From: Candidatus Lindowiibacteriota bacterium | GTDB taxonomy: Bacteria > Lindowbacteria > 2-12-FULL-62-27 | Assembly: GCA_023249255.1 (NCBI GenBank) | Contig: JAHFCY010000064.1 | Span: 1-13,389 of the forward strand | Direction of reading: 5' to 3' | DNA: 13,389 nt | Part shown: piece after piece, positions 1-13,389 of the stretch | How the letters are laid out: every line of letters starts with the position of its first letter | How positions within the stretch are numbered: position 1 is the stretch's first letter | The notes under the pieces: model-generated | What the model was told of the DNA's origin: nothing | The model's input: the letters and a program-made list of their open reading frames with translations, nothing else | The model's database searches: none | Made by a program: the position numbers and the translations under genes

Positions 1-2
1 AG

Positions 3-161
3 ATTTCCGACAGCACGACTTCCTACGGTTCCTACAGCGGCGCTGTTCCCAACGAAAAAACCACATGGGGAAAACTGGACGCTCAAACCCCGCGGTTCAT
101 TATCGAATCGGACGCCACAATTGTCGCACCGCTTATCTTCGCCCACGTGCTGGGAAAATAG
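3..161 (+). CDS. C-terminal fragment of unrecognised protein (5' end outside window)
   Basis: An open frame enters from the left edge and ends at TAG 159-161, giving about 52 visible residues. They begin with a Ser/Thr/Tyr/Gly-rich stretch and end in a hydrophobic segment (TIVAPLIFAHVLGK). I recognise no domain. The next gene starts 12 bases downstream in the same frame and has no obvious ribosome binding site, so it may be translated after this gene and belong to the same transcript. The fragment could be the end of a secreted or membrane protein, but nothing proves it. It is called coding because the frame is open to the edge and fits tightly against the following gene. Confidence 0.5.
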   Translation: MSDSTTSYGSYSGAVPNEKTTWGKLDAQTPRFIIESDATIVAPLIFAHVLGK

Positions 162-173
162 CCGGCGTTCAGT

Positions 174-2969
174 ATGAAAACCATACCCGAATCCGGTTTC
201 ACGTCCCGGTTTCTCAACTCACTTCGCACTGCGTTTGATTTTCAGCCCGGCGAAGGATGGCCGCTGTCGCTGCTGATCGCCCATTCGTGCGCCCTGGCCA
301 TCGGCGTCCAGGTTTCCTACATCGCCGGCAACGCCCTCTTTCTGGCCAAATTCAACGTGGACAGTTTGCCGTATGTCTATATCGGATCCGGCTTGATCGT
401 GACGGCCATCGGCTATGCGTATGAAAAACTCGCCTTGCGCGTTTCGGTCGGCCGGCTCTGGACGGTCGGGCTCCTGGCGATCCTGACTTCGATTGCAGCG
501 TTTCGGGGCGTATTCGCGTTCACCGATTCCAAATGGCCGACGATGGTGTTTCTGATGTGGTGGGAGGCGATCGAGTGTCTGGGTATCCTCGAGTTCTGGG
601 CGCTGGCGGGAAGAATTTTCAATATAAGGCAGGCCAAACGGCTGTTCCCTCTGATCGGCTGCGGGGAGGAAATCGCGATCATTCCGGCCGGGTTGATCAT
701 TCCGCTGGTCGTGCCGTTCATCGGAACGAAGAACCTCCTGATCGTCGCCGCGATCGGCGTGCTGGTCAGCCTTTTTCTGATGACCTATATCGTCCGCGCG
801 TTTCCGGATCGGATTGCGGTCAAAGGCGAGGATGAGGACGAGGAGGACGAAGAGGGCGGGGCATCATTTTCCGAGTTGATCAAAAACCGCTATCTGCGGC
901 TCATCTTTATCACGTCCGTCATGACGATCATCATGTTTTATCTCGTCAATTTTTCCTTCTATGACCGGGTGGAGACCCGCTACCCGGACGAATCCAAACT
1001 GGCCGGGTTTTTCGGAATATATTATGCGGTCCAATCCGCCGCATGCCTGTTGTTGAGGACAGTCGGCGGCCGATTGATCAATCGTTACGGTCTGTCGCTG
1101 GGCATTCTCGGTCTTCCCTGCATGATTTTGCTGGGCACGATGCCGGCGGTGACGATCGGCAGTTTTTCGGCGCTCGCCGGCCTGTTCTTCTGGCTTGTCA
1201 TCGCGACCAATCTTTTTGACGATGTTCTCCGGTCGGTGATCGAGGAGCCGTCGGTGCTGGTTTTGTATCAGCCGCTTCCACCCGAACAGCGGATCGGCGC
1301 GCAGACGGCCGTCGAGGGTTATATCAAACCCTTCTCCGGCCTTGTGATCGGCGTGGTTCTGCTGGTTCTGACCAAATCGTTTGACTTCAAAGCCATTCAT
1401 GCCTTGTACATGCTGGTTCCGGTTCTGCTCGTCTGGATTTTCTTCGCGGCGCGGCTTCGGAAGGAATACACCGGCACGCTCATGGGAGCCTTGTCCAGGC
1501 GCATCATGGGCGGCGAACGGCTCTCTCTCAACGACGATGCCAGCGTGGAGATTTTGAAGAAGGGTCTTGCGAGCGCCCATCCGGGCGAGGTGATTTACTC
1601 TCTAAAAATGCTGGAGGAGATCGCGCACGACTCGCTGGAGGCGTCGACGATCTCGCTCCTGGATCATTCGACTCCGGAGGTCCGGCGTTACGCGGCCCAG
1701 ACCGTTGAACGGCGCGGGATGAAAGCGGCTCTGAACGATCTGACGATTCGATTGGAGAAGGAGATCGATCCGGCCGTGCGCGGCACGGTCATTCGAACTC
1801 TTTGCGCGCTTGGAGAACTCGAAACGGACATGCAAATGAAAAAATTCCTGAGCGACCCGTCTCCGCAGATCAGAAAAGGCGCGATGGTGGGGCTGTTGCG
1901 AAGCGGCGGGATCGAAGGTGTTTTGGCGGCGGGCGAGCGCTTTCTTTCGATGATCCATTCCGCTTCGGCGTCGGACCGGGTTCTGGCCGCGCAGGTGCTG
2001 GGCGATGTCGAGGTCCAGAGCTTTTACAGTCCGCTCTTGACCCTACTCGCGGATCCGGACGCGGCCGTGCAGAGGGAGGCGATCAAAGCGTCCGGTCGAA
2101 TCGCCAATCCCCGGTTGTGGCCTCTGCTCATTGAAAAACTTTCGAGTCATCCCGTCGCCGGTGACGCCTGCGCGGCGCTCGCGAAAGCCGGCCCGTCCGT
2201 CGTCCCGATCCTCGATGAAGCGTTTGAGCGGCCCGGACAGACTCATGACATCCGCGCGAGGCTGATCCGGATCTGCGGCCACATCGAGGGATCCGATGCC
2301 GGCGCGATGCTGATCAAAAAACTTCAGTTTCCGGATGAAAAAATCCGCGGAGAAATTTTGCGGTCTTTGAAACTGCGGGGTTTTTCCGCCGGCCAGAACG
2401 AAATTCCAATCGTCCGGACGATGATCCACGACGAGGTGGCGGACGTCGCATGGACCCTGGCCGCGATCGTGGATGTCGGCGACGACGCCGTGTCCGGCGC
2501 GGATATCCTCACCCGGTCGCTTCGGCATGAAATTTTTCTCAATCAGGACAGAACGTTCCTTCTGCTCTCGTTCCTCTATCCTCCCGAACCGATCCTTCGC
2601 GCCCGTGCGAATCTGAACATTGATTCCGACGAAAAACGATCCTATGCCGTTGAGATTGTCGACAGCCTGCTGTCGCAGGATCTCAAAAACATCGTGATCC
2701 CTCTGATCGATGACATCACTCACGACCAGCGATTGAAACGACTGTACGACTCTTTTCCGCAGAAAGCTCTGGGTCGAACCGAACGATTGAAACTCCTCAT
2801 CACGCGTCCACCGGCCCAGTCCTCCGCCTGGTCCAGGGCCTGTTCGGTTCACGCGGCATCCAGGCTCTGTTTTGATTCTCTGCGGGATGTCATCGAGGAA
2901 GCCCGGCGCGATTCCCATCCGCTGGTGCGGGAAACGGCCGAACGCGCGCTTGCCGTGAACGGGGGCTGA
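174..2969 (+). CDS. NTT/MFS-like membrane domain fused to HEAT repeats (T1)
   Basis: 931 residues. Residues from about 33 to 432 form a run of roughly ten to twelve hydrophobic segments resembling ATP/ADP-translocase-like (NTT/TLC) and MFS carriers. A strikingly acidic loop at about 218-229 (EDEDEEDEE) separates the two halves. Residues from about 445 to 925 are helical repeats of HEAT/PBS-lyase type; clear units begin near STPEVRR (499), SDPSPQIRK (560) and ADPDAAVQRE (626). The protein is paralogous over its whole shared length to T2 at 6241, but it stops after the HEAT region and lacks the cyclic-nucleotide domains. Location is inner membrane with a cytosolic HEAT scaffold (inferred). The substrate is unknown; nucleotide transport is only suggested by the fold, and a sensor or scaffold role is possible. 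The start ATG has no clear Shine-Dalgarno. The stop overlaps the next start by one base (TGATG at 2967-2971), implying translational coupling to the SET gene. Confidence 0.85.
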   Translation: MKTIPESGFTSRFLNSLRTAFDFQPGEGWPLSLLIAHSCALAIGVQVSYIAGNALFLAKFNVDSLPYVYIGSGLIVTAIGYAYEKLALRVSVGRLWTVGLLAILTSIAAFRGVFAFTDSKWPTMVFLMWWEAIECLGILEFWALAGRIFNIRQAKRLFPLIGCGEEIAIIPAGLIIPLVVPFIGTKNLLIVAAIGVLVSLFLMTYIVRAFPDRIAVKGEDEDEEDEEGGASFSELIKNRYLRLIFITSVMTIIMFYLVNFSFYDRVETRYPDESKLAGFFGIYYAVQSAACLLLRTVGGRLINRYGLSLGILGLPCMILLGTMPAVTIGSFSALAGLFFWLVIATNLFDDVLRSVIEEPSVLVLYQPLPPEQRIGAQTAVEGYIKPFSGLVIGVVLLVLTKSFDFKAIHALYMLVPVLLVWIFFAARLRKEYTGTLMGALSRRIMGGERLSLNDDASVEILKKGLASAHPGEVIYSLKMLEEIAHDSLEASTISLLDHSTPEVRRYAAQTVERRGMKAALNDLTIRLEKEIDPAVRGTVIRTLCALGELETDMQMKKFLSDPSPQIRKGAMVGLLRSGGIEGVLAAGERFLSMIHSASASDRVLAAQVLGDVEVQSFYSPLLTLLADPDAAVQREAIKASGRIANPRLWPLLIEKLSSHPVAGDACAALAKAGPSVVPILDEAFERPGQTHDIRARLIRICGHIEGSDAGAMLIKKLQFPDEKIRGEILRSLKLRGFSAGQNEIPIVRTMIHDEVADVAWTLAAIVDVGDDAVSGADILTRSLRHEIFLNQDRTFLLLSFLYPPEPILRARANLNIDSDEKRSYAVEIVDSLLSQDLKNIVIPLIDDITHDQRLKRLYDSFPQKALGRTERLKLLITRPPAQSSAWSRACSVHAASRLCFDSLRDVIEEARRDSHPLVRETAERALAVNGG

Positions 2970-3658
2970 TGCCTGTAATTCAAGGTCAGGCGCTTTCCAC
3001 GCTCGAAAATTTATTGACAGTTCCGCTTGCCCATGTTTCCATCCGTGCCATGATTCATCCCGACACCGAGTTGAAATTCATCAACAGCGATATCGGATTC
3101 GGCGTTTTCGCCACACGGCTTATTCCCCGCGGCGCCGTTGTCTGGACCCTCTGTCAACTGGATCGCCGCTACACACGGGCCGAGGTTCGGGCCATGCCCC
3201 GGCCCTATCGGACGATCATCGACAAGTACGCCTATGCGAACGCCGAGGGGGATTACATCCTCTGCTGGGACGCGGCGCGATACGTCAATCATTCCTGCGA
3301 CGTGAACACCTGCGACGTCGGAACCCATATCGAACTCGCCGCCAGGGATATCCTTCCCGGTGAGCAGATCACGTGCGATTACAGCTCGTGCAACATTCCC
3401 ATCGAGTGTCTCTGCGGAGCCAAAAACTGCCGCGGGACCATCAAACCGGAGGACGTCCTGACCTATGGACCTCTCTGGGACGGCATCGTCCAGCGTACGC
3501 TTCCTTTCGCCGCGAACGTAGCTCAACCCCTTCTGCCATTCATACAGGACCCGGCGTTTTTCGCCGCTGTGATCAAGGACCCTTCGTTGATGCCATCCTA
3601 TACCGACTTCTTTCGGTCCCCAACCGTGAGGAAACGCAGGACCGCGGTGCGTGTGTAA
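2969..3658 (+). CDS. SET-domain protein, putative lysine methyltransferase (S1)
   Basis: 229 residues from ATG 2969. SET hallmarks, in order: IGFGVFATRLIPRG (SAM-side glycine motif), ILCWDAARYVNHSC with N107-H108-S109-C110-D111-V112-N113, PGEQITCDY with the presumed catalytic Tyr138, and a post-SET zinc motif C147-x-C149-x4-C154 (CLCGAKNC). The usual NHSCDPN has Val in place of Pro here. SET enzymes methylate lysine, usually on proteins, using S-adenosylmethionine; the substrate is unknown. It is a clear paralogue of S2 at 5645. The shared region begins at TTG 3014 (LTxxxAxVSIxxMxHPDT), so the true start may be TTG 3014 or ATG 3050. ATG 2969 is kept because it overlaps the upstream stop (TGATG) and follows a G-rich stretch. 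The C-terminus is basic (RKRRTAVRV). The next gene starts 20 bases later. Confidence 0.85.
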   Translation: MPVIQGQALSTLENLLTVPLAHVSIRAMIHPDTELKFINSDIGFGVFATRLIPRGAVVWTLCQLDRRYTRAEVRAMPRPYRTIIDKYAYANAEGDYILCWDAARYVNHSCDVNTCDVGTHIELAARDILPGEQITCDYSSCNIPIECLCGAKNCRGTIKPEDVLTYGPLWDGIVQRTLPFAANVAQPLLPFIQDPAFFAAVIKDPSLMPSYTDFFRSPTVRKRRTAVRV

Positions 3659-3667
3659 ATTCGAGTC

Positions 3668-3673
3668 GGGGAG
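3668..3673 (+). promoter_or_regulatory. Ribosome binding site of the deoxyhypusine synthase homologue
   Basis: GGGGAG lies five bases before ATG 3679. It fixes the start well inside a longer open frame that runs back through the SET gene to 3373. Confidence 0.7.
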
Positions 3674-3678
3674 CGGCC

Positions 3679-4734
3679 ATGCCCAGGAACGGTAAGAAAT
3701 CCGAATTTCTCAAAGACCCCATCGAACATATCGACATCACCCGCCACAATGTCGTCCCGCTTGTCGAGGCGATGGGCAAGATGGCCTTCCAGGCGCGCAA
3801 CCTGTCCCGGGCGGCCGGGATTTACGACACGATGATCGAGGACAAAGATTGCTCCATCATCCTGTGCCTGGCCGGGTCGCTTTTTTCGGCGGGCCTCAAG
3901 CGCGTCGTCTATGATCTCGTGGCCAACAACATGGTCGACACCATCGTCTCCACCGGCGCCAATATCGTGGATCAGGATTTCTTCGAGGCACTCGGATTCA
4001 AACATTACAGGGGAACTCCTTTTGTCAACGATCACGACCTCCGCGCCGCGCGCGTCGACCGCATCTACGACACCTTTATCGATGAAGATCAGATGGCCGT
4101 GTGCGACAACACGATCTCCGAGATCGCCGGAACGTTACAACCCCGGACCTACTCCTCCCGGGAATTTATCGAAGAGATGGGAAAATTCCTCGTCGGGAGA
4201 TGCAAAGTCACGGATTCGATCGTTCTGACCGCCTGTCAGAAAGGCGTGCCGATCTTTGTGCCGGCATTCTCGGATTGCAGCGCGGGGTTTGGCCTTCTGC
4301 ACCACCAAACGCACAACCCGGAATCGCACGTCTCGATCGACTCCGCGAGGGATTTGAGGGAATTGACGCAATGCAAGATGCAGACCATGCAGTCGGGTCT
4401 CTTGATGATCGGAGGCGGCACGCCGAAAAATTTCGCGCAGGACATCGTCGTGGCGGCCAAGATGATCGGACTTGAGCCGACGATGCACAAGTACGCGGTT
4501 CAGATCACCGTGGCCGACGAACGCGACGGCGCCCTCTCCGGCTCAACGCTCAAGGAAGCCTGCTCATGGGGCAAGGTGGACACCGCTTATGAGCAGATGG
4601 TGTTCGCGGAAGCGACGCTCGCCTTCCCGCTCCTCGCCGGCTACGCCTATCACAAAGGTTCATGGAAAGGCCGTGCGGCCCGCAATTTTAACGCCCTGCT
4701 GAACGAGGGCGCCTTAGTCACCGCTCGTCGCTGA
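3679..4734 (+). CDS. Deoxyhypusine synthase family protein (bacterial DHS-like)
   Basis: 351 residues from ATG 3679, the usual length for this family. Visible motifs: FLKDPIEHIDI at the N-terminus; an NAD-side loop S91-T-G-A-N95 followed by IVDQDFFEALG; a second nucleotide-site loop GGGTPKNF at 245-252; and the signature EACSWGKVD with Lys299 at the position of the catalytic lysine of eukaryotic DHS (Lys329 in human). DHS enzymes take the aminobutyl group of spermidine, using NAD, onto an amine: a lysine of eIF5A in eukaryotes, or putrescine in homospermidine synthases that evolved from DHS. Bacteria lack eIF5A, so the acceptor here is open. Homospermidine or another polyamine is the simplest guess, fitting the agmatinase directly downstream. 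It lies 20 bases after the SET gene with its own good RBS. Family assignment is very secure; reaction is inferred. Confidence 0.93.
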   Translation: MPRNGKKSEFLKDPIEHIDITRHNVVPLVEAMGKMAFQARNLSRAAGIYDTMIEDKDCSIILCLAGSLFSAGLKRVVYDLVANNMVDTIVSTGANIVDQDFFEALGFKHYRGTPFVNDHDLRAARVDRIYDTFIDEDQMAVCDNTISEIAGTLQPRTYSSREFIEEMGKFLVGRCKVTDSIVLTACQKGVPIFVPAFSDCSAGFGLLHHQTHNPESHVSIDSARDLRELTQCKMQTMQSGLLMIGGGTPKNFAQDIVVAAKMIGLEPTMHKYAVQITVADERDGALSGSTLKEACSWGKVDTAYEQMVFAEATLAFPLLAGYAYHKGSWKGRAARNFNALLNEGALVTARR

Positions 4735-4760
4735 ATTCCGCGCGCCCCTTGGAAATCGCC

Positions 4761-4764
4761 GGAG
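4761..4764 (+). promoter_or_regulatory. Ribosome binding site deciding the agmatinase start
   Basis: GGAG sits five bases before TTG 4770. The alternative in-frame TTG at 4749 has no Shine-Dalgarno in front of it, so 4770 is preferred. Confidence 0.55.
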
Positions 4765-4769
4765 ACGTA

Positions 4770-5624
4770 TTGCCCGGGAAGTTTCTCGGTGTGGACGTCC
4801 CGCTGGAAAAAGCCCGCTTTGTCGTCCTGCCGATTCCCTACGAGCGCACCACGTCGTACAAGAAAGGGACGGTGCTCGGACCCGAAAAATTCATAGAGGG
4901 ATCGCAGGGACTGGAGTTGTGGGACGAGGAACTTCAAGTACAAACTTACAAACGTGGAATACATACGTTGCCCGCCGTCGTCTGCGATGAGGACGCGGAG
5001 ACGCTGTTCCCGAAACTCGAGAATGAAGTTCTCCGACTGGCGCGGATGAAAAGGAAGACGTTGTTTTCCATCGGCGGCGAGCATTCCCTTTCCCAAGTTA
5101 CCATCGCGGCATTCGCCAAGGTTTATCCGGGCCTGAACGTTCTGCACTTCGACGCGCACGCGGACCTGCGCCCGACCTATGAAGGCACGCCGCACAATCA
5201 CGCCTGCGCGCTCTACCCCGCGTCCCGCATGTGCCGCATTGTCCAGGTCGGCATCCGATCGGTGGCGGAGGAGGAGGCGCACCTCACCAACGCGGGGAAC
5301 GTGACGACGCTCTACATGCACGAAACCCGGGACATCCAAAAACTGTCGGCGCGCGTCCTCAAGGAATTGTCGTCCCCCGTTTATCTTTCCATCGATTTGG
5401 ACGGTTTCGATCCGCACGTCATCCCCGGCGTCGGCACGCCCCAGCCCGGGGGGTTCTCGTGGTATGAGGGGCTTGATCTCTTCCGCGAAGCGATCGCCCG
5501 GAAAGACGTGGTGGGCGTGGACATCATGGAACTCTGCCCTCTTCAGGACACCAGCCAATCCGAACTCGCTGCCGCCAAGCTGGCTTACCGGCTCATGGGT
5601 TACCTTGGCCTCAAGGAGAAATAA
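4770..5624 (+). CDS. speB: Agmatinase (ureohydrolase family)
   Basis: 284 residues from TTG 4770, or 291 from TTG 4749. There is no ATG near the 5' end. The 4770 start is favoured by GGAG at 4761 and gives MPGKFLGV..., close to where family members begin. All metal-binding motifs of the arginase/agmatinase fold are present: GGEHS with His105; DAHAD with Asp128, His130 and Asp132; and DLDGFDP with Asp209 and Asp211. The family features LPIPYERTTSYKKGT near the N-terminus, GTPQPGG, and DIMELCPLQD near the end also match. The enzyme hydrolyses agmatine to putrescine and urea with two manganese ions in the cytosol. No arginine decarboxylase is visible here to supply agmatine. Its position directly after the DHS homologue suggests it feeds that enzyme. 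A related guanidino substrate (e.g. guanidinobutyrate) cannot be excluded. Confidence 0.92.
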   Translation: MPGKFLGVDVPLEKARFVVLPIPYERTTSYKKGTVLGPEKFIEGSQGLELWDEELQVQTYKRGIHTLPAVVCDEDAETLFPKLENEVLRLARMKRKTLFSIGGEHSLSQVTIAAFAKVYPGLNVLHFDAHADLRPTYEGTPHNHACALYPASRMCRIVQVGIRSVAEEEAHLTNAGNVTTLYMHETRDIQKLSARVLKELSSPVYLSIDLDGFDPHVIPGVGTPQPGGFSWYEGLDLFREAIARKDVVGVDIMELCPLQDTSQSELAAAKLAYRLMGYLGLKEK

Positions 5625-5644
5625 AATACGCTCTCGGGAATTAA

Positions 5645-6244
5645 TTGACAGCGGAATTTGCCGATGTTTCCATTAACTCCATGTTGCATCCCGACACACG
5701 CCGCGAATTTAGGACACCCGAGATCGGTGACGGAGTCGTCGCCACGCGCTTGATTCCCCGAGGTACCGTGATCTGGGTGCGGGACCCGCTTGACCTGTCC
5801 ATCACCAAGCAGACATTCCGGTTGTTCCCCCCGTCCGTCCGCGAGCAAATCGACAAATACACGTTCTACGGCGAAGACGACTTGATGATCTTGTGTTGGG
5901 ATCTTGCCCGCTACACGAACCATTCCTGCGATCCCAACTCCTTGACGATCCGGACGGACTTCACGATCGCGATCAGGGACATCCATCCCGGCGAGGAATT
6001 CGCCGAGGACTACGCCCTTCTGAATCTTCACGAGGATCAGACCTTCGACTGCCACTGCGGCGCGGCTCAATGCCGAAAACGCGTGGGACCCCATGACGTA
6101 GCGACCCAATCGGATAAATGGAGAGACGCGATATCGGGGGCCATGGCCCTGATGGACCAGGTCCGACAGCCTCTCAAGTTTCTCCTTCGAGCGGAATGCC
6201 TCGATCGAGCCCGTGCTTACTGCGCGACAGTCGCCGCGTCATGA
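5645..6244 (+). CDS. SET-domain protein, putative lysine methyltransferase (S2)
   Basis: 199 residues from TTG 5645. A TAA immediately before it (5642-5644) blocks any longer frame; ATG 5681 is the alternative start. The TTG start is supported because homology to S1 extends back to exactly this codon. SET motifs: IGDGVVATRLIPRG, ILCWDLARYTNHSC with the canonical N92-H-S-C95-D-P-N98, PGEEFAEDY with the presumed catalytic Tyr123, and post-SET cysteines C136, C138 and C143 (CHCGAAQC). It should be a SAM-dependent methyltransferase acting on lysine of an unknown partner. It follows the agmatinase by 20 bases with no good Shine-Dalgarno. Its TGA overlaps the ATG of T2 (ATGA 6241-6244), so the two are probably translationally coupled. 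The C-terminal quarter differs from S1 and may set substrate choice. Confidence 0.85.
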   Translation: MTAEFADVSINSMLHPDTRREFRTPEIGDGVVATRLIPRGTVIWVRDPLDLSITKQTFRLFPPSVREQIDKYTFYGEDDLMILCWDLARYTNHSCDPNSLTIRTDFTIAIRDIHPGEEFAEDYALLNLHEDQTFDCHCGAAQCRKRVGPHDVATQSDKWRDAISGAMALMDQVRQPLKFLLRAECLDRARAYCATVAAS

Positions 6245-9200
6245 AAAAATTCCTGCAATCGACGTTCGATATCGAGAACGACGAGGTAAAACCGGTCGGG
6301 CTGACGTTTCTGATCGGGTTTATCTGGGGCGTGTCGCAGATGTTCAGTTATACGGCGGCCAACACGATATTCTTATCCAAATACGGCGCCGATTATCTGG
6401 CGTATTCGTTCATCATCAACGCCGTCCTCGTCCCGCTGGCCGGCTACATCATCATGAAATTGGCCGAACGCTTTTCGTTTTCCAAGTACATCACGATCAC
6501 GCTTGTGTTTTACTGCGTCATCCTGGCGGCGTTCCTGGTCGCCTTGACCGTTTCGACCGTCCGGCTACCTTCCATGATCTACCTTCTCTGGATCGACGTT
6601 GAAAACACGCTGTCCAACGTCCTGTTTATGAGCATCGTCAATAAGTTGTTCAACCTCCGACAATCCAAACGGTTGTACGGGATCTGCAGTTTCGGCGGCG
6701 AGTTCGCGTACATCCTCGGCGGCCTCGTGATCCCGATCATCGTAAAATTCACCGGCGCGCTGAACCTGACCGGCTTTGCGATCGGGTTCGACGTGCTGTC
6801 TCTCTTCGTGTTTTTCTCGATCATCAAATCATTCCCTGACAAGATCGCCGCGGCGGATGTGGCAGAGGACGGCGAGGAATCGGAACAGACCGGCGCGCCG
6901 TCATTCCTGTCTCTGTTGAAAAACAGGTATATCGCGGGGATCGTCACCGTCGCTTCACTGGCCGCCATGGCGACCTGTTTCGTGGAGAACGCCTACTTCG
7001 ACCAGTTGCAGAGCTATCTTGGCGATGAAGTCAAAATCGCGCAGTTTCTAAGTCTGTTTTATACGGTTTCCTCCCTGTTTGTCCTGCTCGTCAGCGGGCT
7101 GGTGACCGCGCGGTTCATGAAAATTTTCGGCTTGTCCGCAAGCCTGCTCGTCAATCCGGTATTGGTTGGCCTGATCACACTGCTCTTCGTCATCGCCTCG
7201 AATTTCGGATTGTCGGCGCTCCTGGTCTTTTCGCTGGTCGTCGGCGTGCGGCTGACGAACTCGGTCATCTTTTCGTCCATCCACGGTTCGGCCTATTTCA
7301 ATCTATTCCAGTCGGTGCCGGCGAGGGATCGGGACACGGCGATCAATTTTTCGGAAACGTTCATGGCGAACATCACGAGCGGACTCGCGGGACTCGTGCT
7401 TCTCGTCATGACGCAGTACTTCGACGCCGGCGCCCGGGGAATTCTGATCGGCGTTGAGGTCATCATCGTGTTCTGGCTCGCCATCTGCATCTTTCTCGGA
7501 AGCGAGTACAAGAAAAATCTAAGCGGCGTGCTGAAAAACAAAATGCTCCGGGGCGGGGACGTGTCGCTGGACGATCCGGCCGTGACCGCTCTTCTGCTTC
7601 AAAACCTGAAAAGTTCGAATCCGACCGAGATTATCAACAGCATCGACATGCTGGAGAAGGCGCGGTTCCGCGACATCAAGCTTCACGCCGTCGAACTGGC
7701 GCGCAACGACGATTCGGGAGTTCGGATCAAAGCCGCCGAGATTTACGAGAAGCACGGGGATTCCGGTGACGTGGCGCTCATATCGGAGATGCTCGCCGCT
7801 GAAAAAGATCCCGGAGCGGTCGCCGGCTGGCTTCGCGCGCGGGGATTCGCGAGCGAAGGCGAGTCCATCGAGAAGCTTGAATCGTATTTGAAGAACGCCA
7901 ACCACACGATCGCTATCGGGGCGTTTTCGGCCCTCATCAAATATTGCAGTGTCGAAGGGATGATCGTCGCCGGAAGCGAGCTTCTGCGGTTGACCCGGTC
8001 GGCGGACGCGAACGAACGAAGTTTTGCGGCCGACGTCATCGGCGAGATCGGTCTGTCGAATCTGTACCGGCTCCTGTATCCGCTTCTGAAGGACGAAAAT
8101 ATGCCGGTGCGCAAGAATGCGCTGGCGGCGGCCGGTCGGCTGAACAATTCAAAACTGATTCCCTTCATGATCGACAATCTGACCAACGCCGAACTGCGGC
8201 ACAACGCGATGAAAGGTTTGATTACGGCCGCCGAAAAGGCCATTCCCGCGCTTGAAAATCTCTACAAAAACTCCCCCGCCTCGCGCGAGCTGGTCGCGTA
8301 TCTGTACGGTCGCATCAAGGGCAAAGAGGCGATCGTCTGTCTGAAGCAAAAATTGTCCGAGCCGGACCGGAACGTCTTGATCGCGGTCGTCCACTCGCTC
8401 GAAACGTGCCGGTTCGCGCCCGACGCGGGCGATTTGCCCCGGCTGAACGGCATTCTGAACGCCGCGTTGAAATACGGCGGCATTGTGCTGTGCGCCGAGA
8501 ACGACATCGGCGGCGGCGAAAGCAACTACATCGTCCGCGAGGCGCTCAAATATGAAAAATTGAAAAACAAGGAATACATCTTCTCCCTGCTCACGATGAT
8601 CTACCCGGGACACAACGTGAAAGACATCCGGTTCAATTACCTCTATTCCGGGGACGAGGAAAAAATAGCGCTCGCCATCGAACTGCTCGACAATATCCTG
8701 CACAAAAATCATCGGGACCTTCTGCTGTCACTTCTCGAGGACTCTAATGCCGAAAAATCCATCGCGGCGTTGAACCGCGGATTTCCGGAGATCGGGCTCC
8801 TGGGCCGGGACAAACGCCTGAACGAGATCATCTCCAACACCTCGGAATGGCGGAACAAGTGGCTGATGTCGACGGTCTATCACACGATCATCAAGTCCGG
8901 GTCGGCCGGGGAAAAACAATCGGTCCTCCGGAAACTCGAGGAAGCCCGGGAACAGGAGATCATGAGCGCGGTCATCGCGCAGAAGGAAAAATACTCGCTG
9001 GTCGACAAAGTCATCATCCTGAAAAAAGCCGAATTGTTTTCCGCCATCCCCGACGAAGTCATCGCGAAGATCGCCGAATTGGCCGAGCTCGTCGAATATC
9101 CGAAAGACGGGGCGATATTCCGGAAAGGCGAGCCGGGGTCTGCATTTTATATCGTCGCGGAAGGCCGCGTGAAGATCCATTCGGCGGATAAGATCATCGC

Positions 9201-9915
9201 GGAATTGGATGAAGGGAAGATATTCGGCGAATTGTCCGCGTTAAGTCCGGAAGTCCGGACCGCGGATGCAACGGCGCTCGATCGGACTCTGCTGTTGCGG
9301 CTGACCCAGAACGCCATCGGCCACATCATCGATGAACAGTTGGATGTATCCAAGGGCATTATCCGTATTCTCTGCCAGCGCATTCGAAACACGATCGCCG
9401 CGAAATCCGCGGCCGCGCAAAAATCTCCGGCGCCCCCCGTAGCGGCCGAAGTTGCGCCGGTCCCGGCGGATGGCGCTGCGCCGGATGCCGGTGAAGACAG
9501 GGAATTGACGGACATCGAAAAAATATTGATTCTCAAATCGGTCAGCATATTCAGCAAATTGGATGACGCCATTCTGAAGGACATCGCGGGCATTTCGAAG
9601 GAACAGCGATTGTTGCCCAACGAAGTGCTGTTCAGGACGGGCGACTCCGGGACGTCGATGTTTGTCATTGTCCATGGCGAAGTCAAAGTTCACGACGGCG
9701 ACCATGTGATCGCGCGCCTCGGCGACCGGAAATTCATGGGCGAACTCGCGGCGCTCTCCTCCGAGTCGCGAACCGCTTCCGTCACCGCGTTGAAAAAAAC
9801 GGATCTGCTCAAAATCACGCAGGAATCGCTGTACGAGATCATGTGGGATTACCCCGAAGTCGCAAAAGGGTTTATCCAGGTGTTGATTGACAGGTTAAGA
9901 AGTTTAATGAGGTAA
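6241..9915 (+). CDS. NTT/MFS-like membrane domain + HEAT repeats + two cyclic-nucleotide-binding domains (T2)
   Basis: 1224 residues from ATG 6241, chosen for its ATGA overlap with S2 and because the N-terminus MKKFLQSTFDIEND aligns with T1; the frame is open back to 6118. Residues from about 17 to 425 form a multi-pass membrane region like NTT/TLC or MFS carriers, with an acidic central loop (VAEDGEESEQ) where T1 has its own. HEAT-like repeats follow from about 440 to 880 (e.g. near 487 and 617). Two cyclic-nucleotide-binding domains end the protein, at about 926-1050 and 1091-1224, joined by an Ala/Pro-rich linker at about 1053-1090. Each has the phosphate-cassette Glu and Arg: GEL E997 with R1006 (VRTAD), and GEL E1168 with R1177 (SRTAS). 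Binding of cAMP, cGMP or another nucleotide is therefore plausible. Function inferred: an inner-membrane transporter or sensor controlled by a second messenger. Confidence 0.88.
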   Translation: MKKFLQSTFDIENDEVKPVGLTFLIGFIWGVSQMFSYTAANTIFLSKYGADYLAYSFIINAVLVPLAGYIIMKLAERFSFSKYITITLVFYCVILAAFLVALTVSTVRLPSMIYLLWIDVENTLSNVLFMSIVNKLFNLRQSKRLYGICSFGGEFAYILGGLVIPIIVKFTGALNLTGFAIGFDVLSLFVFFSIIKSFPDKIAAADVAEDGEESEQTGAPSFLSLLKNRYIAGIVTVASLAAMATCFVENAYFDQLQSYLGDEVKIAQFLSLFYTVSSLFVLLVSGLVTARFMKIFGLSASLLVNPVLVGLITLLFVIASNFGLSALLVFSLVVGVRLTNSVIFSSIHGSAYFNLFQSVPARDRDTAINFSETFMANITSGLAGLVLLVMTQYFDAGARGILIGVEVIIVFWLAICIFLGSEYKKNLSGVLKNKMLRGGDVSLDDPAVTALLLQNLKSSNPTEIINSIDMLEKARFRDIKLHAVELARNDDSGVRIKAAEIYEKHGDSGDVALISEMLAAEKDPGAVAGWLRARGFASEGESIEKLESYLKNANHTIAIGAFSALIKYCSVEGMIVAGSELLRLTRSADANERSFAADVIGEIGLSNLYRLLYPLLKDENMPVRKNALAAAGRLNNSKLIPFMIDNLTNAELRHNAMKGLITAAEKAIPALENLYKNSPASRELVAYLYGRIKGKEAIVCLKQKLSEPDRNVLIAVVHSLETCRFAPDAGDLPRLNGILNAALKYGGIVLCAENDIGGGESNYIVREALKYEKLKNKEYIFSLLTMIYPGHNVKDIRFNYLYSGDEEKIALAIELLDNILHKNHRDLLLSLLEDSNAEKSIAALNRGFPEIGLLGRDKRLNEIISNTSEWRNKWLMSTVYHTIIKSGSAGEKQSVLRKLEEAREQEIMSAVIAQKEKYSLVDKVIILKKAELFSAIPDEVIAKIAELAELVEYPKDGAIFRKGEPGSAFYIVAEGRVKIHSADKIIAELDEGKIFGELSALSPEVRTADATALDRTLLLRLTQNAIGHIIDEQLDVSKGIIRILCQRIRNTIAAKSAAAQKSPAPPVAAEVAPVPADGAAPDAGEDRELTDIEKILILKSVSIFSKLDDAILKDIAGISKEQRLLPNEVLFRTGDSGTSMFVIVHGEVKVHDGDHVIARLGDRKFMGELAALSSESRTASVTALKKTDLLKITQESLYEIMWDYPEVAKGFIQVLIDRLRSLMR

Positions 9916-9927
9916 TCGAATCCTGCC

Positions 9928-11175
9928 ATGATGAAAAACATTAAAAACTCGATCACGGTATTGACCTTGTTCTTTTCCCTGTTTGCTCCAGCCGCCGTTT
10001 CTCAAGCCGCCGAGGAATCACCGCTCACGGGAACATGGGGCGGTGTCCGCACAAAGCTTGAAGACAAGGGTGCGCTTCTTAAAGGTACATACACGGGAGA
10101 CTATATCGCCGATCGTTCGGGCGGATTGAGACGAAAAAGGGCTTTCGTCGGAGCCGTGGATCTGTCGCTTACGTTGGACGCGGAAAAAATGCTCGGCTGG
10201 AAAGGGACAACCCTTTATCTTTACGGATTCGGCAACAACGGCGGGGCGCCAAGCAGGGACAATGTGGGCGACGCGCAGGGCGTGAGTTTTTACGAAACAG
10301 GGAGATATATGTGGACCATCAACGACGCGTCGATCGAGAAAAAACTTTTTAATGACCGCGTGTCCGTTCTCGGGGGACTGTATGATTTGAGCAATGACTT
10401 TGACCTGGTGGATTGCGCCCGTCTCTTCTTAAACAGTTCGTATTTTGTGAACCCCACGATATCGTCGAGCGGAGTAAACGGAGCATCCATTTATCCCGCG
10501 ACGTCGTATGGCGGAAGAATCAGAGTACAGCCGATTGACGGATTTACGATTCAGACCGCGGTTCTGGACGGCATTCCCGGGAAACCGGTTTTCGGGAAAT
10601 CGGACGGCCTGCTTCTCGCCACCGAACTGTCTCTTCTTGCCGGCTCGGAAGAAAATTCAACAACGCTTTACGGTAAATATGCCGTCGGGTACTGGCAATA
10701 TACAGCCTGGTTTGACGATATCGCCGATGTGGACGACGACGGGAATGCCGTCAGAAGAAGCGGCAGTTCCGGCTTTTATGGACTGATCGAGAAAGCGCTC
10801 TACCATGAAAAAGAAAATCCTGACGCCGGGCTTGCGTTTTTTTTACGCCTCGGATCATGCGACCCGAACACAAACCAGTACGACCCTTACATGAGCGGCG
10901 GGCTTGTTTATACAGGATTGGTTAAAGGGCGGCCCGGGGACAAACTCGGACTCGCTTTTGCATCCGTTTCCAACAGCGCGAAATACAGGCAATCCATGTC
11001 CGCCGCGGGAACTCCCGTGGATACCACGGAAAAAAATCTCGAACTCACGTACCTTGCGCGGATCACGCCATGGCTTGCCATCCAGCCGGACTTTCAGTTC
11101 GTTATCAACCCGGGAATGGATATCGCCGTAAAAAATGCCGTGGTTGTCGGGTCCCGGTTTGCTGTCTCATTTTAA
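9928..11175 (+). CDS. OprB-family carbohydrate-selective porin-like protein
   Basis: 415 residues with a Sec signal peptide (KNIKN, a hydrophobic core, then VSQA|AEE with likely cleavage after residue 27). The mature start LTGTWGGVRTKLEDKG...YTGDY is the N-terminal signature of the OprB family (PF04966). The rest alternates short hydrophobic and polar strands typical of an outer-membrane barrel, and the last residue is Phe (FAVSF), as expected for BAM-dependent assembly. The family forms outer-membrane channels for sugars and other small solutes; the solute here is unknown. It begins 12 bases after T2 with no intervening promoter that I can see, so it is probably the last gene of the transporter/SET/polyamine unit. 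ATG 9931 is an equally possible start (Met-Met). No clear hairpin terminator follows. Confidence 0.85.
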   Translation: MMKNIKNSITVLTLFFSLFAPAAVSQAAEESPLTGTWGGVRTKLEDKGALLKGTYTGDYIADRSGGLRRKRAFVGAVDLSLTLDAEKMLGWKGTTLYLYGFGNNGGAPSRDNVGDAQGVSFYETGRYMWTINDASIEKKLFNDRVSVLGGLYDLSNDFDLVDCARLFLNSSYFVNPTISSSGVNGASIYPATSYGGRIRVQPIDGFTIQTAVLDGIPGKPVFGKSDGLLLATELSLLAGSEENSTTLYGKYAVGYWQYTAWFDDIADVDDDGNAVRRSGSSGFYGLIEKALYHEKENPDAGLAFFLRLGSCDPNTNQYDPYMSGGLVYTGLVKGRPGDKLGLAFASVSNSAKYRQSMSAAGTPVDTTEKNLELTYLARITPWLAIQPDFQFVINPGMDIAVKNAVVVGSRFAVSF

Positions 11176-11216
11176 GTTGACGTCATCGTTCCCCCACCCC
11201 CTGTAAAAAATTCCAG

Positions 11217-11244
11217 TTGAAAACGCCTGTGGAGATGCTATGAT
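11217..11244 (+). promoter_or_regulatory. Extended -10 sigma70-type promoter of the AT-hook gene
   Basis: The -35 box TTGAAA (11217-11222) is 16 bases from the -10 box TATGAT (11239-11244), which is preceded by TG at 11236-11237 (TGCTATGAT). Each hexamer matches consensus at five of six positions. Transcription would begin near 11251. The ATG at 11240 lies inside the -10 box and could not be the start from this promoter. Confidence 0.65.
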
Positions 11245-11289
11245 GGGGGTCTCTTCGGACGTATATCGATCCGACAAACAAACATCGTC

Positions 11290-11298
11290 AGGAAGGAA
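11290..11298 (+). promoter_or_regulatory. Ribosome binding site deciding the AT-hook gene start
   Basis: The purine run AGGAAGGAA ends seven bases before ATG 11306. Together with the promoter at 11217-11244 it supports this start over ATG 11240, even though GGAG at 11231 precedes the latter. Confidence 0.65.
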
Positions 11299-11305
11299 AC
11301 CCATC

Positions 11306-11833
11306 ATGGTTCCGAAAAAGGAAGAACGCGAGAGCAAGCGCGAATTGCTCACTTCATCCGACTTGAGAAAGTCCATCCAGGTCGAACTGCGACGCATCCG
11401 GTCGATCGTCAAGGAAATTGCCTCCAATTACGTTTCGAAACTCGAGGCCAGCGCGGAGGACATGGCCAAGGGTCTGGAGGAAATTCAGATCGACGCCAAG
11501 GATGATCTGCGGAAAATTTTGAAATCCATCCGTGAATTGAACGTGAAGCCCAACAAGGGCCGCCGCAAGGATCTGCGCAAGATTGACGATCTGATCGAAA
11601 CGCTTCGAGGGGAAGTCGACGTGCTTCGGGACAAGCAGGAGAAGGAGATGCGGGACAAGCCGGCTGAGACTTCGGATGCTCCCCGCCGCCGCGGCCGCCC
11701 TCCCAAACAGTCCGCCGCCGCCGGAATTCGCCGCCGCGGCCGCCCTCGAAAGAATCGGGCTCCGGCCGATTCGTCGATCTCGTCCGTTCCGGAATCCTCC
11801 GAATCATCTTCCGACCTCGTCCACGCCGCTTAA
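11306..11833 (+). CDS. Small coiled-coil protein with two AT-hooks
   Basis: 175 residues from ATG 11306. Residues from about 10 to 115 are highly charged and helical, with heptad-like patterns (e.g. DLRKSIQVELRRIRSIVKEI and DDLIETLRGEVDVLRDKQ), probably a coiled coil. Two AT-hooks follow: R127-R-R-G-R-P-P-K134 and R142-R-R-G-R-P-R-K149, each with the GRP core that enters the minor groove of AT-rich DNA. The tail is Ser/Glu-rich (SSVPESSESSSD) and acidic. The plan, a helical oligomerising part plus basic hooks plus acidic tail, resembles HMGA-like or nucleoid-associated proteins. A DNA-binding, chromosome-organising or regulatory role is inferred. It has its own promoter and so is probably transcribed apart from the upstream genes. 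I recognise no named family beyond the hooks. Confidence 0.8.
   Translation: MVPKKEERESKRELLTSSDLRKSIQVELRRIRSIVKEIASNYVSKLEASAEDMAKGLEEIQIDAKDDLRKILKSIRELNVKPNKGRRKDLRKIDDLIETLRGEVDVLRDKQEKEMRDKPAETSDAPRRRGRPPKQSAAAGIRRRGRPRKNRAPADSSISSVPESSESSSDLVHAA
11684..11702 (+). repeat. Direct repeat copy 1, AT-hook coding unit
   Basis: A 19-base sequence, CGCCGCCGCGGCCGCCCTC, encodes the RRRGRP core of the first AT-hook. It is repeated exactly 45 bases downstream, an in-frame 15-residue period, which suggests that the second hook arose by local duplication. Confidence 0.85.
11729..11747 (+). repeat. Direct repeat copy 2, AT-hook coding unit
   Basis: Identical 19-base copy of 11684-11702, encoding the core of the second AT-hook. 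The bases between the copies (rich in CCG) encode a Gln/Ser/Ala spacer. Confidence 0.85.
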
Positions 11834-11836
11834 AAA

Positions 11837-11865
11837 TTGACCGGCGGCGTTCGTTGCCGTAAAAT
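11837..11865 (+). promoter_or_regulatory. Near-consensus sigma70-type promoter of the NHL-repeat gene
   Basis: The -35 box TTGACC (11837-11842) and -10 box TAAAAT (11860-11865) are separated by exactly 17 bases, and each matches consensus at five of six positions. The expected transcription start near 11872 is only about four bases before ATG 11876, predicting an almost leaderless mRNA. The -35 box begins three bases after the stop codon of the AT-hook gene. Confidence 0.6.
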
Positions 11866-11875
11866 TGCTTCTGCC

Positions 11876-13389
11876 ATGATATTTTTGAGATTTATCCTGT
11901 CCGCTGTCTGTCTTGCGTCCGTGTCCGTTCAGGTTGGACTTGCGGGCGGTCTTGAGCGCGTTACGCCTCCTCCCGGCGATGTCGTGTCCGGGCCGTCCCA
12001 CGCGCGATTTGGAGCGGCCGTGTTGCGCGGGGCGAGCCTGCCGGCGGTGTCTTTTTTCGGACAGCCGTCAGACGTCACGGCCGACACCGTCCTCGGCCAG
12101 CCCGATTTTTCGTCCAATGCCGACACAGGCCCGTGCCGGACGCGTATCGGCTATCCGATGGGCAGCGCCTATTACGTCCGGGGCGATTCACATTTTCTGT
12201 TTGTGTGCGATGAGGAATACAGCCGGGTTCTGATCTACGCCAATGCCGACCGCCTGACCAACGGACAGGCGGCATTTGCCGTCATTGGTCAGAGTGGGTT
12301 TGACACGGGTCAGGCCAACCGCGGTGCCTCGGTCCCGGACTCCAACACGTTGAGTTATCCCGCGGATATTTTCGTCGACGCGCAGGGCGATCTTTACGTG
12401 GCCGATTTTTACAACAATCGTGTGCTCGTCTTTCACGATCCCATCGGCACTGATCTGATTGCCGACTCGGTCTTCGGACAGAACGGATCGTTTACGTCGC
12501 GCCAGGCGAACCTCGGCGGCCGGGGCGCGTCAAGTCTCAACGGGCCGATCAGCGTCACGGTTGACGCCGACCGCAACCTCTACGTCGCCGACTGCAACAA
12601 CCACCGCGTTCTGATTTATTTTGATCCGTTGAATAGTGATCCGGCCGCCGACCGCGTGATCGGCCAGGGCGACAGTTTCGCGTCGGGCACGGCCAACCCC
12701 GGTGGCGTCTCGGCCTCGTCGTTCAATCATCCCTATCGCGTCCGGCTTGATCCATCCGGAAATCTTTACGTCACCGACATCGACAACAGCCGCGGTCTTG
12801 TGTTCAACACCCCGCTGGACGAGGATCGCGTGGCCGACGCCGTCATCGGCCAGCCGAATTTTGCGTCCGGAACCGCCAACGCCGGAGGCCGGAGCGCATC
12901 GAGCATCAATGAGGCCTGCTCGCTCGGTGTCGACGCCTACGCGAACCTCTACATGGCCGACTGGGGCAACAACCGCGTCCTGTTTTATAAACGGCCTCTG
13001 GCCGAGGACACGGTGGCTGACATCGTGTTCGGTCAGAACGATTTTGCGTCGGCCGACACGTTTTCCCCGAGCGCGTTGAGCCTCTGGGGCGCCCAGCGGC
13101 TCGATTTTGATCCTGCCGGCAATCTCTACATTTCCGACTGCTACAATTCCCGCGTGGTGATTCACCGGATTGCCGCCGTTGCGAATTTGAGTCCCGTGCC
13201 ATGGATCACCGTTCCGAAAACCGGCCAGTCGGTTTCCGGAAATGCCGTGAGCGTCATCGCGCATCTGGACGGTTCCGGCAAAGGCGTGACGATGCAATTT
13301 CAATACCGGAAGGAGCCGTCCACGACGTGGACCGTGCTCGGGCCGGATGTTCCTTCCCGGCCATACCAGTTGAAATGGAAGACGACCGC
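11876..13389 (+). CDS. Secreted NHL-repeat beta-propeller protein with Ig-like region (3' end outside window)
   Basis: 504 complete codons are visible; the frame is open at the right edge. The first 23 or so residues (MIFLRFILSAVCLASVSVQV...) look like a signal peptide. Six NHL-type repeats of 61-64 residues follow. Each carries a GQ turn (VLGQPDF, VIGQSGF, VFGQNGSF, VIGQGDSF, VIGQPNF, VFGQNDF), and its blade core has the pattern LYVADxxNNRVLxF. Examples are LYVADFYNNRVLVF and LYMADWGNNRVLFY. Six repeats fit a complete six-bladed propeller. From about residue 435 a Pro/Val-rich segment (WITVPKTGQSVSG...QFQYRKEPSTTW) resembles a bacterial Ig-like or fibronectin-like domain. The likely role is extracytoplasmic binding of protein or carbohydrate, possibly cell-surface; the ligand is unknown. 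No Shine-Dalgarno precedes the ATG, in keeping with the predicted leaderless transcript. Confidence 0.85.
   Translation, partial: MIFLRFILSAVCLASVSVQVGLAGGLERVTPPPGDVVSGPSHARFGAAVLRGASLPAVSFFGQPSDVTADTVLGQPDFSSNADTGPCRTRIGYPMGSAYYVRGDSHFLFVCDEEYSRVLIYANADRLTNGQAAFAVIGQSGFDTGQANRGASVPDSNTLSYPADIFVDAQGDLYVADFYNNRVLVFHDPIGTDLIADSVFGQNGSFTSRQANLGGRGASSLNGPISVTVDADRNLYVADCNNHRVLIYFDPLNSDPAADRVIGQGDSFASGTANPGGVSASSFNHPYRVRLDPSGNLYVTDIDNSRGLVFNTPLDEDRVADAVIGQPNFASGTANAGGRSASSINEACSLGVDAYANLYMADWGNNRVLFYKRPLAEDTVADIVFGQNDFASADTFSPSALSLWGAQRLDFDPAGNLYISDCYNSRVVIHRIAAVANLSPVPWITVPKTGQSVSGNAVSVIAHLDGSGKGVTMQFQYRKEPSTTWTVLGPDVPSRPYQLKWKTT
12086..13175 (+). repeat. Six tandem NHL-encoding repeats
   Basis: The GQ codons of successive repeats start at 12095, 12287, 12476, 12662, 12848 and 13031, giving periods of 192, 189, 186, 186 and 183 bases. 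The repeats have diverged at DNA level but keep the protein pattern GQxxF...AN...LYVAD..NNRVL. The fourth blade deviates, with NSRGLVF in place of NNRVLVF. Confidence 0.75.

Follow-up and report, generated by a model that had tools for sequence, protein, structure and literature searches.

SET-domain proteins are known mainly as protein-lysine methyltransferases. A recent exception is BurB, a small SET enzyme of bacteria that is encoded among metabolic genes and converts methionine to S-methylmethionine in DMSP synthesis (PMC12542666; PDB 9l4t, 9l4v); bacterial SET proteins can thus act on small molecules. Two further systems concern the polyamine homospermidine. In Thermus thermophilus, the caldomycin synthase CdmS joins two agmatines to give caldomycin, which the ureohydrolase TtSpeBap then converts to homospermidine (PMC10981699). 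The pairing of DHS-family enzymes with agmatinase for homospermidine synthesis has likewise been described, in SpeY/SpeB gene clusters with SpeD-derived decarboxylases, in a report whose searched text makes no mention of SET domains (PMC10407285). The literature searched yielded no publication joining SET domains with homospermidine synthesis, and no methylated homospermidine.

At the locus described here, an already known route to homospermidine is predicted in new genomic surroundings. The locus shares with the T. thermophilus route the type of its first enzyme (as judged by curated cut-off), the catalytic lysine motif and a ureohydrolase-family gene directly 3' of it, and with the SpeY/SpeB clusters the clustering of a DHS-family enzyme with an agmatinase. 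It differs from the former in also containing two SET genes, a pair of MFS-HEAT proteins, a further DHS-family gene and a porin, and from the latter in that its complete DHS-family member is of the CdmS type.

The window (the whole stretch of DNA that was analyzed) covers positions 1 to 13,389 of a contig of 14,277 bases, from an incomplete genome (3.35 Mb in 366 contigs, 88.7% complete). All six genes named in the first-pass annotation are present and co-directional (Table 1), and the block is longer than these six, with the end of a second DHS-family gene lying 12 bp before T1 on the 5' side and an OprB porin gene, probably the last of the operon, beginning 12 bp after T2 on the 3' side. Of the tiny gaps and overlaps that had been claimed, two are wider, since the SET starts indicated by homologues leave about 80 bp between T1 and SET1 and about 56 bp between the agmatinase gene and SET2, while SET2 and T2 overlap by ATGA; an in-frame ATG upstream, at 2969, would lengthen SET1 by 27 aa. 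Family assignments in the block are above curated cut-offs (Pfam, NCBIfam), with the exception of the MFS match of T2. Promoter and terminator scans gave counts near shuffled expectation. Farther 3' (11240-13387), OprB is followed by a short lysine/arginine-rich protein (11240-11833) and by an NHL-repeat protein that runs from 11837 off the window end.

Table 1. Features of the window, with the evidence for each assignment (scores in bits)
Feature	Position	Strand	Evidence
Second DHS-family (PF01916) gene, C-terminal 52 aa, cut by contig end	1..161	+	PF01916 38.4 (cut-off 27)
T1, MFS/NTT-like membrane domain and HEAT repeats, 931 aa	174..2969	+	PF03219 TLC 52.5; HEAT_2 78.9
SET1 (SETa subfamily)	3050..3658	+	PF00856 48; start from homologues; subfamily from tree
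DHS-family gene, CdmS type (caldomycin synthase)	3679..4734	+	NF002699 573 (cut-off 500); Lys in conserved WGK motif
Agmatinase/guanidino-polyamine ureohydrolase; TTG start uncertain	4749..5624	+	TIGR01230 213.1 (cut-off 174.3)
SET2 (SETb subfamily)	5681..6244	+	PF00856 41.8; start from homologues; tree grouping
T2, MFS-like membrane domain, HEAT repeats and two C-terminal cNMP-binding domains, about 1224 aa	6241..9915	+	HEAT_2 69.7; cNMP_binding 122.1 in two stretches; MFS_1 24.5, under cut-off
OprB-family porin	9928..11175	+	PF04966 193.9

By family membership, it is well supported that the operon would make homospermidine from agmatine through CdmS and the ureohydrolase, because both proteins score above curated cut-offs with their motifs intact and the two-enzyme route is published (PMC10981699); the earlier suggestion that the block makes a polyamine is supported to that extent. 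The WGK motif of CdmS (residues 297-299), which holds the conserved lysine, is invariant across four homologues, and the Mn-binding motifs of the ureohydrolase are all in place (GGEHS at 109, DAHAD at 135 and SIDLD at 214). Among the other DHS-type models, the best reaches 309 bits against a cut-off of 434. The genome also carries a SpeD-SpeE pair elsewhere (contig C11, L296 4955-6465), and the agmatinase may therefore mainly feed spermidine synthesis.

No SET genes other than SET1 and SET2 were found in the window's genome; the two are 43% identical over 177 aa. Both exceed the PF00856 cut-off of 22.4 bits and have GxG, NHSC, the catalytic Tyr and the post-SET cysteines; across 58 sequences D38 and D74 never vary and W73 hardly does. 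A tree of 144 SET sequences, several deep branches of which are weak and whose bootstrap had not settled, places SET1 and SET2 in two different subfamilies, which we named SETa and SETb, with SET2 grouping with the SETb proteins of Bacteroidetes (support 93/85). Two SET genes lying side by side in the same direction, mostly as SETa-SETb and in many cases with an ATGA overlap, occur in about 16 other genomes of the Bacteroidota, Thermodesulfobacteriota, Pseudomonadota, Myxococcota and Tectomicrobia, from which we infer that the two probably act as a unit. Only in the window were SETa and SETb seen to be separated by other genes, which are the two polyamine genes. The mirrored gene order, which had been taken to exclude a trivial duplication, is accordingly explained without any local duplication, the best reading being that SETa and SETb were already neighbors before two genes came to lie between them.

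Relatives of SETa and SETb were not found in viral contigs and are nearly absent from phages; plasmid matches are at most about 40% identical, and a search of the Burkholderiales gave only two strong SETa genomes. Some neighborhoods of SET genes were noted in passing. In three genomes (L020, L086 and L099, from G139 and two Tectomicrobia) the SETa-SETb pair is flanked by oxidoreductase-like and AMP-binding-like genes, as judged by eye and by clustering; in G203 (L041 7464-9053) a long open reading frame, as judged by eye, appears to encode an ATP-grasp-like region fused with a SET domain, and it adjoins a second ATP-grasp-like gene; and in two genomes (L015 11528-11827 and L040 236-481) SET genes belonging to a single clade have a very acidic small open reading frame next to them.

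The strongest reason for tying the SET pair to homospermidine comes from a second, unrelated enzyme. In three betaproteobacterial genomes (L085, L092 and L100) SETa-SETb immediately adjoins homospermidine synthase (HSS), a saccharopine-dehydrogenase-like enzyme that is absent from the window and unrelated to caldomycin synthase; HSS and CdmS lead to the same final product and have the same SET pair as neighbor. The proteins of L092 and L100 (Massilia sp. TS11) match solved HSS structures (PDB 4plp, 2ph5) with E values of 1e-96 and 3e-126, and that of L085 is 48% identical to one of the other two, with one in-frame stop in the match. Three gene orders are represented: HSS-SETa-SETb, SETa-SETb with HSS convergent, and SETa-SETb-HSS. 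When the L100 enzyme was searched against 30 SETa-family genomes, HSS was found in four, in three of which it is the immediate neighbor of the SET pair (in the fourth, L096, it is on another contig); the chance of this is about 5e-10, rising to about 2e-6 when 4000 families are crudely allowed for. The proposed link between the SETs and polyamines is supported to this extent, at the level of the two subfamilies. Because the adjacency was noticed after inspection and comes from one broad group, the betaproteobacteria, we regard it as suggestive rather than decisive. As a separate and weak case, in G547 a SETa gene lies 0.8 kb from a fused membrane/Spermine_synth protein.

T1 and T2 are the only T1-like matches in the window's genome, with 28% identity over 885 aa, and the description of the flanking T and SET genes as paralogue pairs stands with the qualification that the T proteins differ in domains, T2 having two cNMP-binding domains and T1 none. 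T1 passes the Pfam TLC cut-off of 21 bits and scores 49 bits against the NCBIfam model of NTP/NDP exchange transporters, TIGR00769 (cut-off 387); T2 shows no match to TLC. Two other genomes have MFS-like HEAT-cNMP proteins next to SETs or in their vicinity (G048 and G145; 0.07 expected, Poisson P of about 0.002), and T-SET pairing is more than chance in this genome sample, but T relatives elsewhere have mostly unrelated genes as neighbors. In about eight lineages (L078, L081, L087, L095, L096, L115, L116 and L145), an orthologue of an MsbA-like ABC exporter is encoded adjacent or close to a SETa-family gene; in the four that were scanned with Pfam, the exporter carries a cNMP domain, C-terminal in several members of the family, in L081, L087 and L096, and the L078 orthologue is without it. 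The suggested coupling to a membrane carrier or sensor is favored by the cNMP-fused exporters that recur beside the SET subfamilies in several lineages. A Rhizobium locus (L083) with PotB/PotC-like permeases, an aminobutyraldehyde dehydrogenase and SETa was discounted, the piece directly before SETa being a fragment of an ABC-cNMP gene.

We tentatively propose, at somewhat less than even confidence, that the block combines homospermidine synthesis with N-methylation of the aminobutyl end or ends by the SETa-SETb pair and with carriers or sensors. Agmatine would pass by way of caldomycin to homospermidine; the SET pair would then methylate homospermidine or a homospermidine-bearing molecule, a substrate that we infer because an aminobutyl arm corresponds in geometry to the lysine side chain on which SET enzymes usually act; and T1, T2 and OprB might transport or sense either the polyamine itself or the methylated product, the cNMP domains of T2 possibly gating activity. 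The narrower version, in which a heteromeric SETa-SETb enzyme N-methylates homospermidine itself and the operon makes methylated homospermidine and exports or senses it, we consider rather unlikely as it stands; if true, the enzyme would be a SET-domain polyamine methyltransferase. In favor of the proposal are the CdmS and agmatinase scores, the HSS adjacency, one partial case in another genome (G027, below), the intact SET residues, the recurring T-like and cNMP-fused transporters and the BurB precedent; against it are the SETa/SETb loci elsewhere, which (among the best 80 of about 440) are without CdmS or agmatinase within 10 kb and have mostly unrelated neighbors, the histone-type matches of SET1, and the SpeD-SpeE pair. 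The widespread tandem SET pair, tied to homospermidine by two unrelated enzymes, offers a concrete test of polyamine modification by SET proteins, and the homospermidine link supplies candidate substrates for an uncharacterized SET family of several bacterial phyla.

Of the alternatives, the one that survives best holds that the SETa and SETb proteins methylate protein lysines (in a transporter or regulator, for example) and are co-expressed with the polyamine and carrier genes by happenstance, the ABC-cNMP or MFS-HEAT-cNMP transporters being their real targets or clients. The best sequence and fold matches of SET1 are to histone-type SETs: its AlphaFold model (pLDDT 94.5) aligns with ASH1L at Z 11.3 and with BurB, which has the same fold, at Z 10.4, the match covering only residues 1 to about 134, and in structure and profile searches alike histone-type SETs match at least as well as BurB. 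In addition, the orthologues of the cNMP-fused ABC exporter adjoin SETa-family genes more often than polyamine genes do. This account leaves unexplained, however, why two unrelated homospermidine-making enzymes should stand beside the same SET pair, and BurB sets a precedent for small bacterial SETs with non-protein substrates. We judge it possible, on the unlikely side.

A second alternative is that the grouping is incidental, CdmS and agmatinase having been inserted, in this lineage, into a SETa-SETb pair already flanked by membrane proteins, with only the promoter in common. The six-gene arrangement is indeed rare. The first-pass annotation had called for a search for co-occurrence of the families within about 10 kb, and this found the block in no other genome examined: none of 80 named SET loci (the best 80 of about 440 SETa/SETb loci, some of which end early at contig ends) has a DHS or agmatinase gene within 10 kb, and most have unrelated neighbors. 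A domain-wide sample of 386 genomes contains 50 with a SET gene, 27 of them also with a DHS-family gene, and the two are close together only in the window and in G027, where genes for agmatinase and CdmS lie about 0.6 kb from a divergently oriented SET gene that belongs to another clade; with 0.05 such cases expected by chance, the single G027 case is not significant alone. As for the two family-mates of the window's genome, G001 has a SET gene and no DHS match, and G002 has no SET gene. Chance would not lead one to expect the tight gaps, the second DHS-family gene upstream or the independent adjacency to HSS, and the fact that SET and HSS genes adjoin in three different orders speaks for selection. 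An incidental origin seems unlikely to us. The exact grouping is rare by the refuting condition that the first-pass annotation had set; what persists, in another form, is the pairing of SET genes with enzymes of homospermidine synthesis.

The protein version of the polyamine reading, in which the DHS homologue aminobutylates a protein lysine that the SETs then methylate, had also been put forward, and we now find it very doubtful. The complete DHS-family protein is below the deoxyhypusine synthase cut-off (TIGR00321, 227.5 bits against 304.25) and every other hypusine-type cut-off, and above that of caldomycin synthase. The upstream DHS-family fragment does score nearer to hypusine-type models (NCBIfam dhys 34 bits, against 16 for NF002699) and, from its 52 aa only, appears to be of a different DHS subfamily, closer to hypusine/SpeY-type models than to caldomycin synthase.

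That SET1 and SET2 are BurB-like methionine S-methyltransferases of a DMSP/sulfonium pathway, with unrelated enzymes nearby, is scarcely credible: BurB is itself a bacterial SET enzyme, and decarboxylase genes sit beside a clade of BurB-like SETs from this genome sample, but the window SETs lie outside that clade (represented by L019, L046 and L047; support 100/97), match BurB at 45 bits against 152 for the clade profile, and have no decarboxylase or aminotransferase of the DMSP pathway in the window. They also differ from BurB-like proteins in a W-D pair before the NHSC motif, absent from the latter, and in a C-terminal helical extension.

The BurB-like clade (G145, G197, G194 and G366) adjoins SpeD or a PLP decarboxylase gene in all four cellular members, the SpeD adjacency of G366, which was added afterwards, having been correctly predicted. 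SpeD or PLP-decarboxylase genes beside SETs (G145, G197, G001, G194 and L084) had been considered as a general SET-polyamine link; because the match of the clade to BurB favors DMSP/sulfonium chemistry, these cases were not counted for the window SETs (G001 is not firmly within the clade). Since BurB methylates methionine, the neighboring enzymes may decarboxylate S-methylmethionine rather than serve polyamine synthesis. A BurB-like SET gene lies directly beside a SpeD (PF02675) homologue in three unrelated genomes (L019 7756-8558, L046 8772-9654 and L269 1147-2346), where SpeD is possibly a pyruvoyl decarboxylase acting on S-methylmethionine in place of the PLP enzyme BurI. The BurB-like SET of G366 forms a fusion with an ArsR-type HTH, and upstream of SpeD in this genome lies a gene for a methyltransferase of the NNMT/PNMT family (L269 1147-1953 and 2403-3158). 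Two viral contigs encode BurB-like SET proteins (L195 5956-6420 and L196 5950-6429; 43-44% identity) without SpeD nearby.
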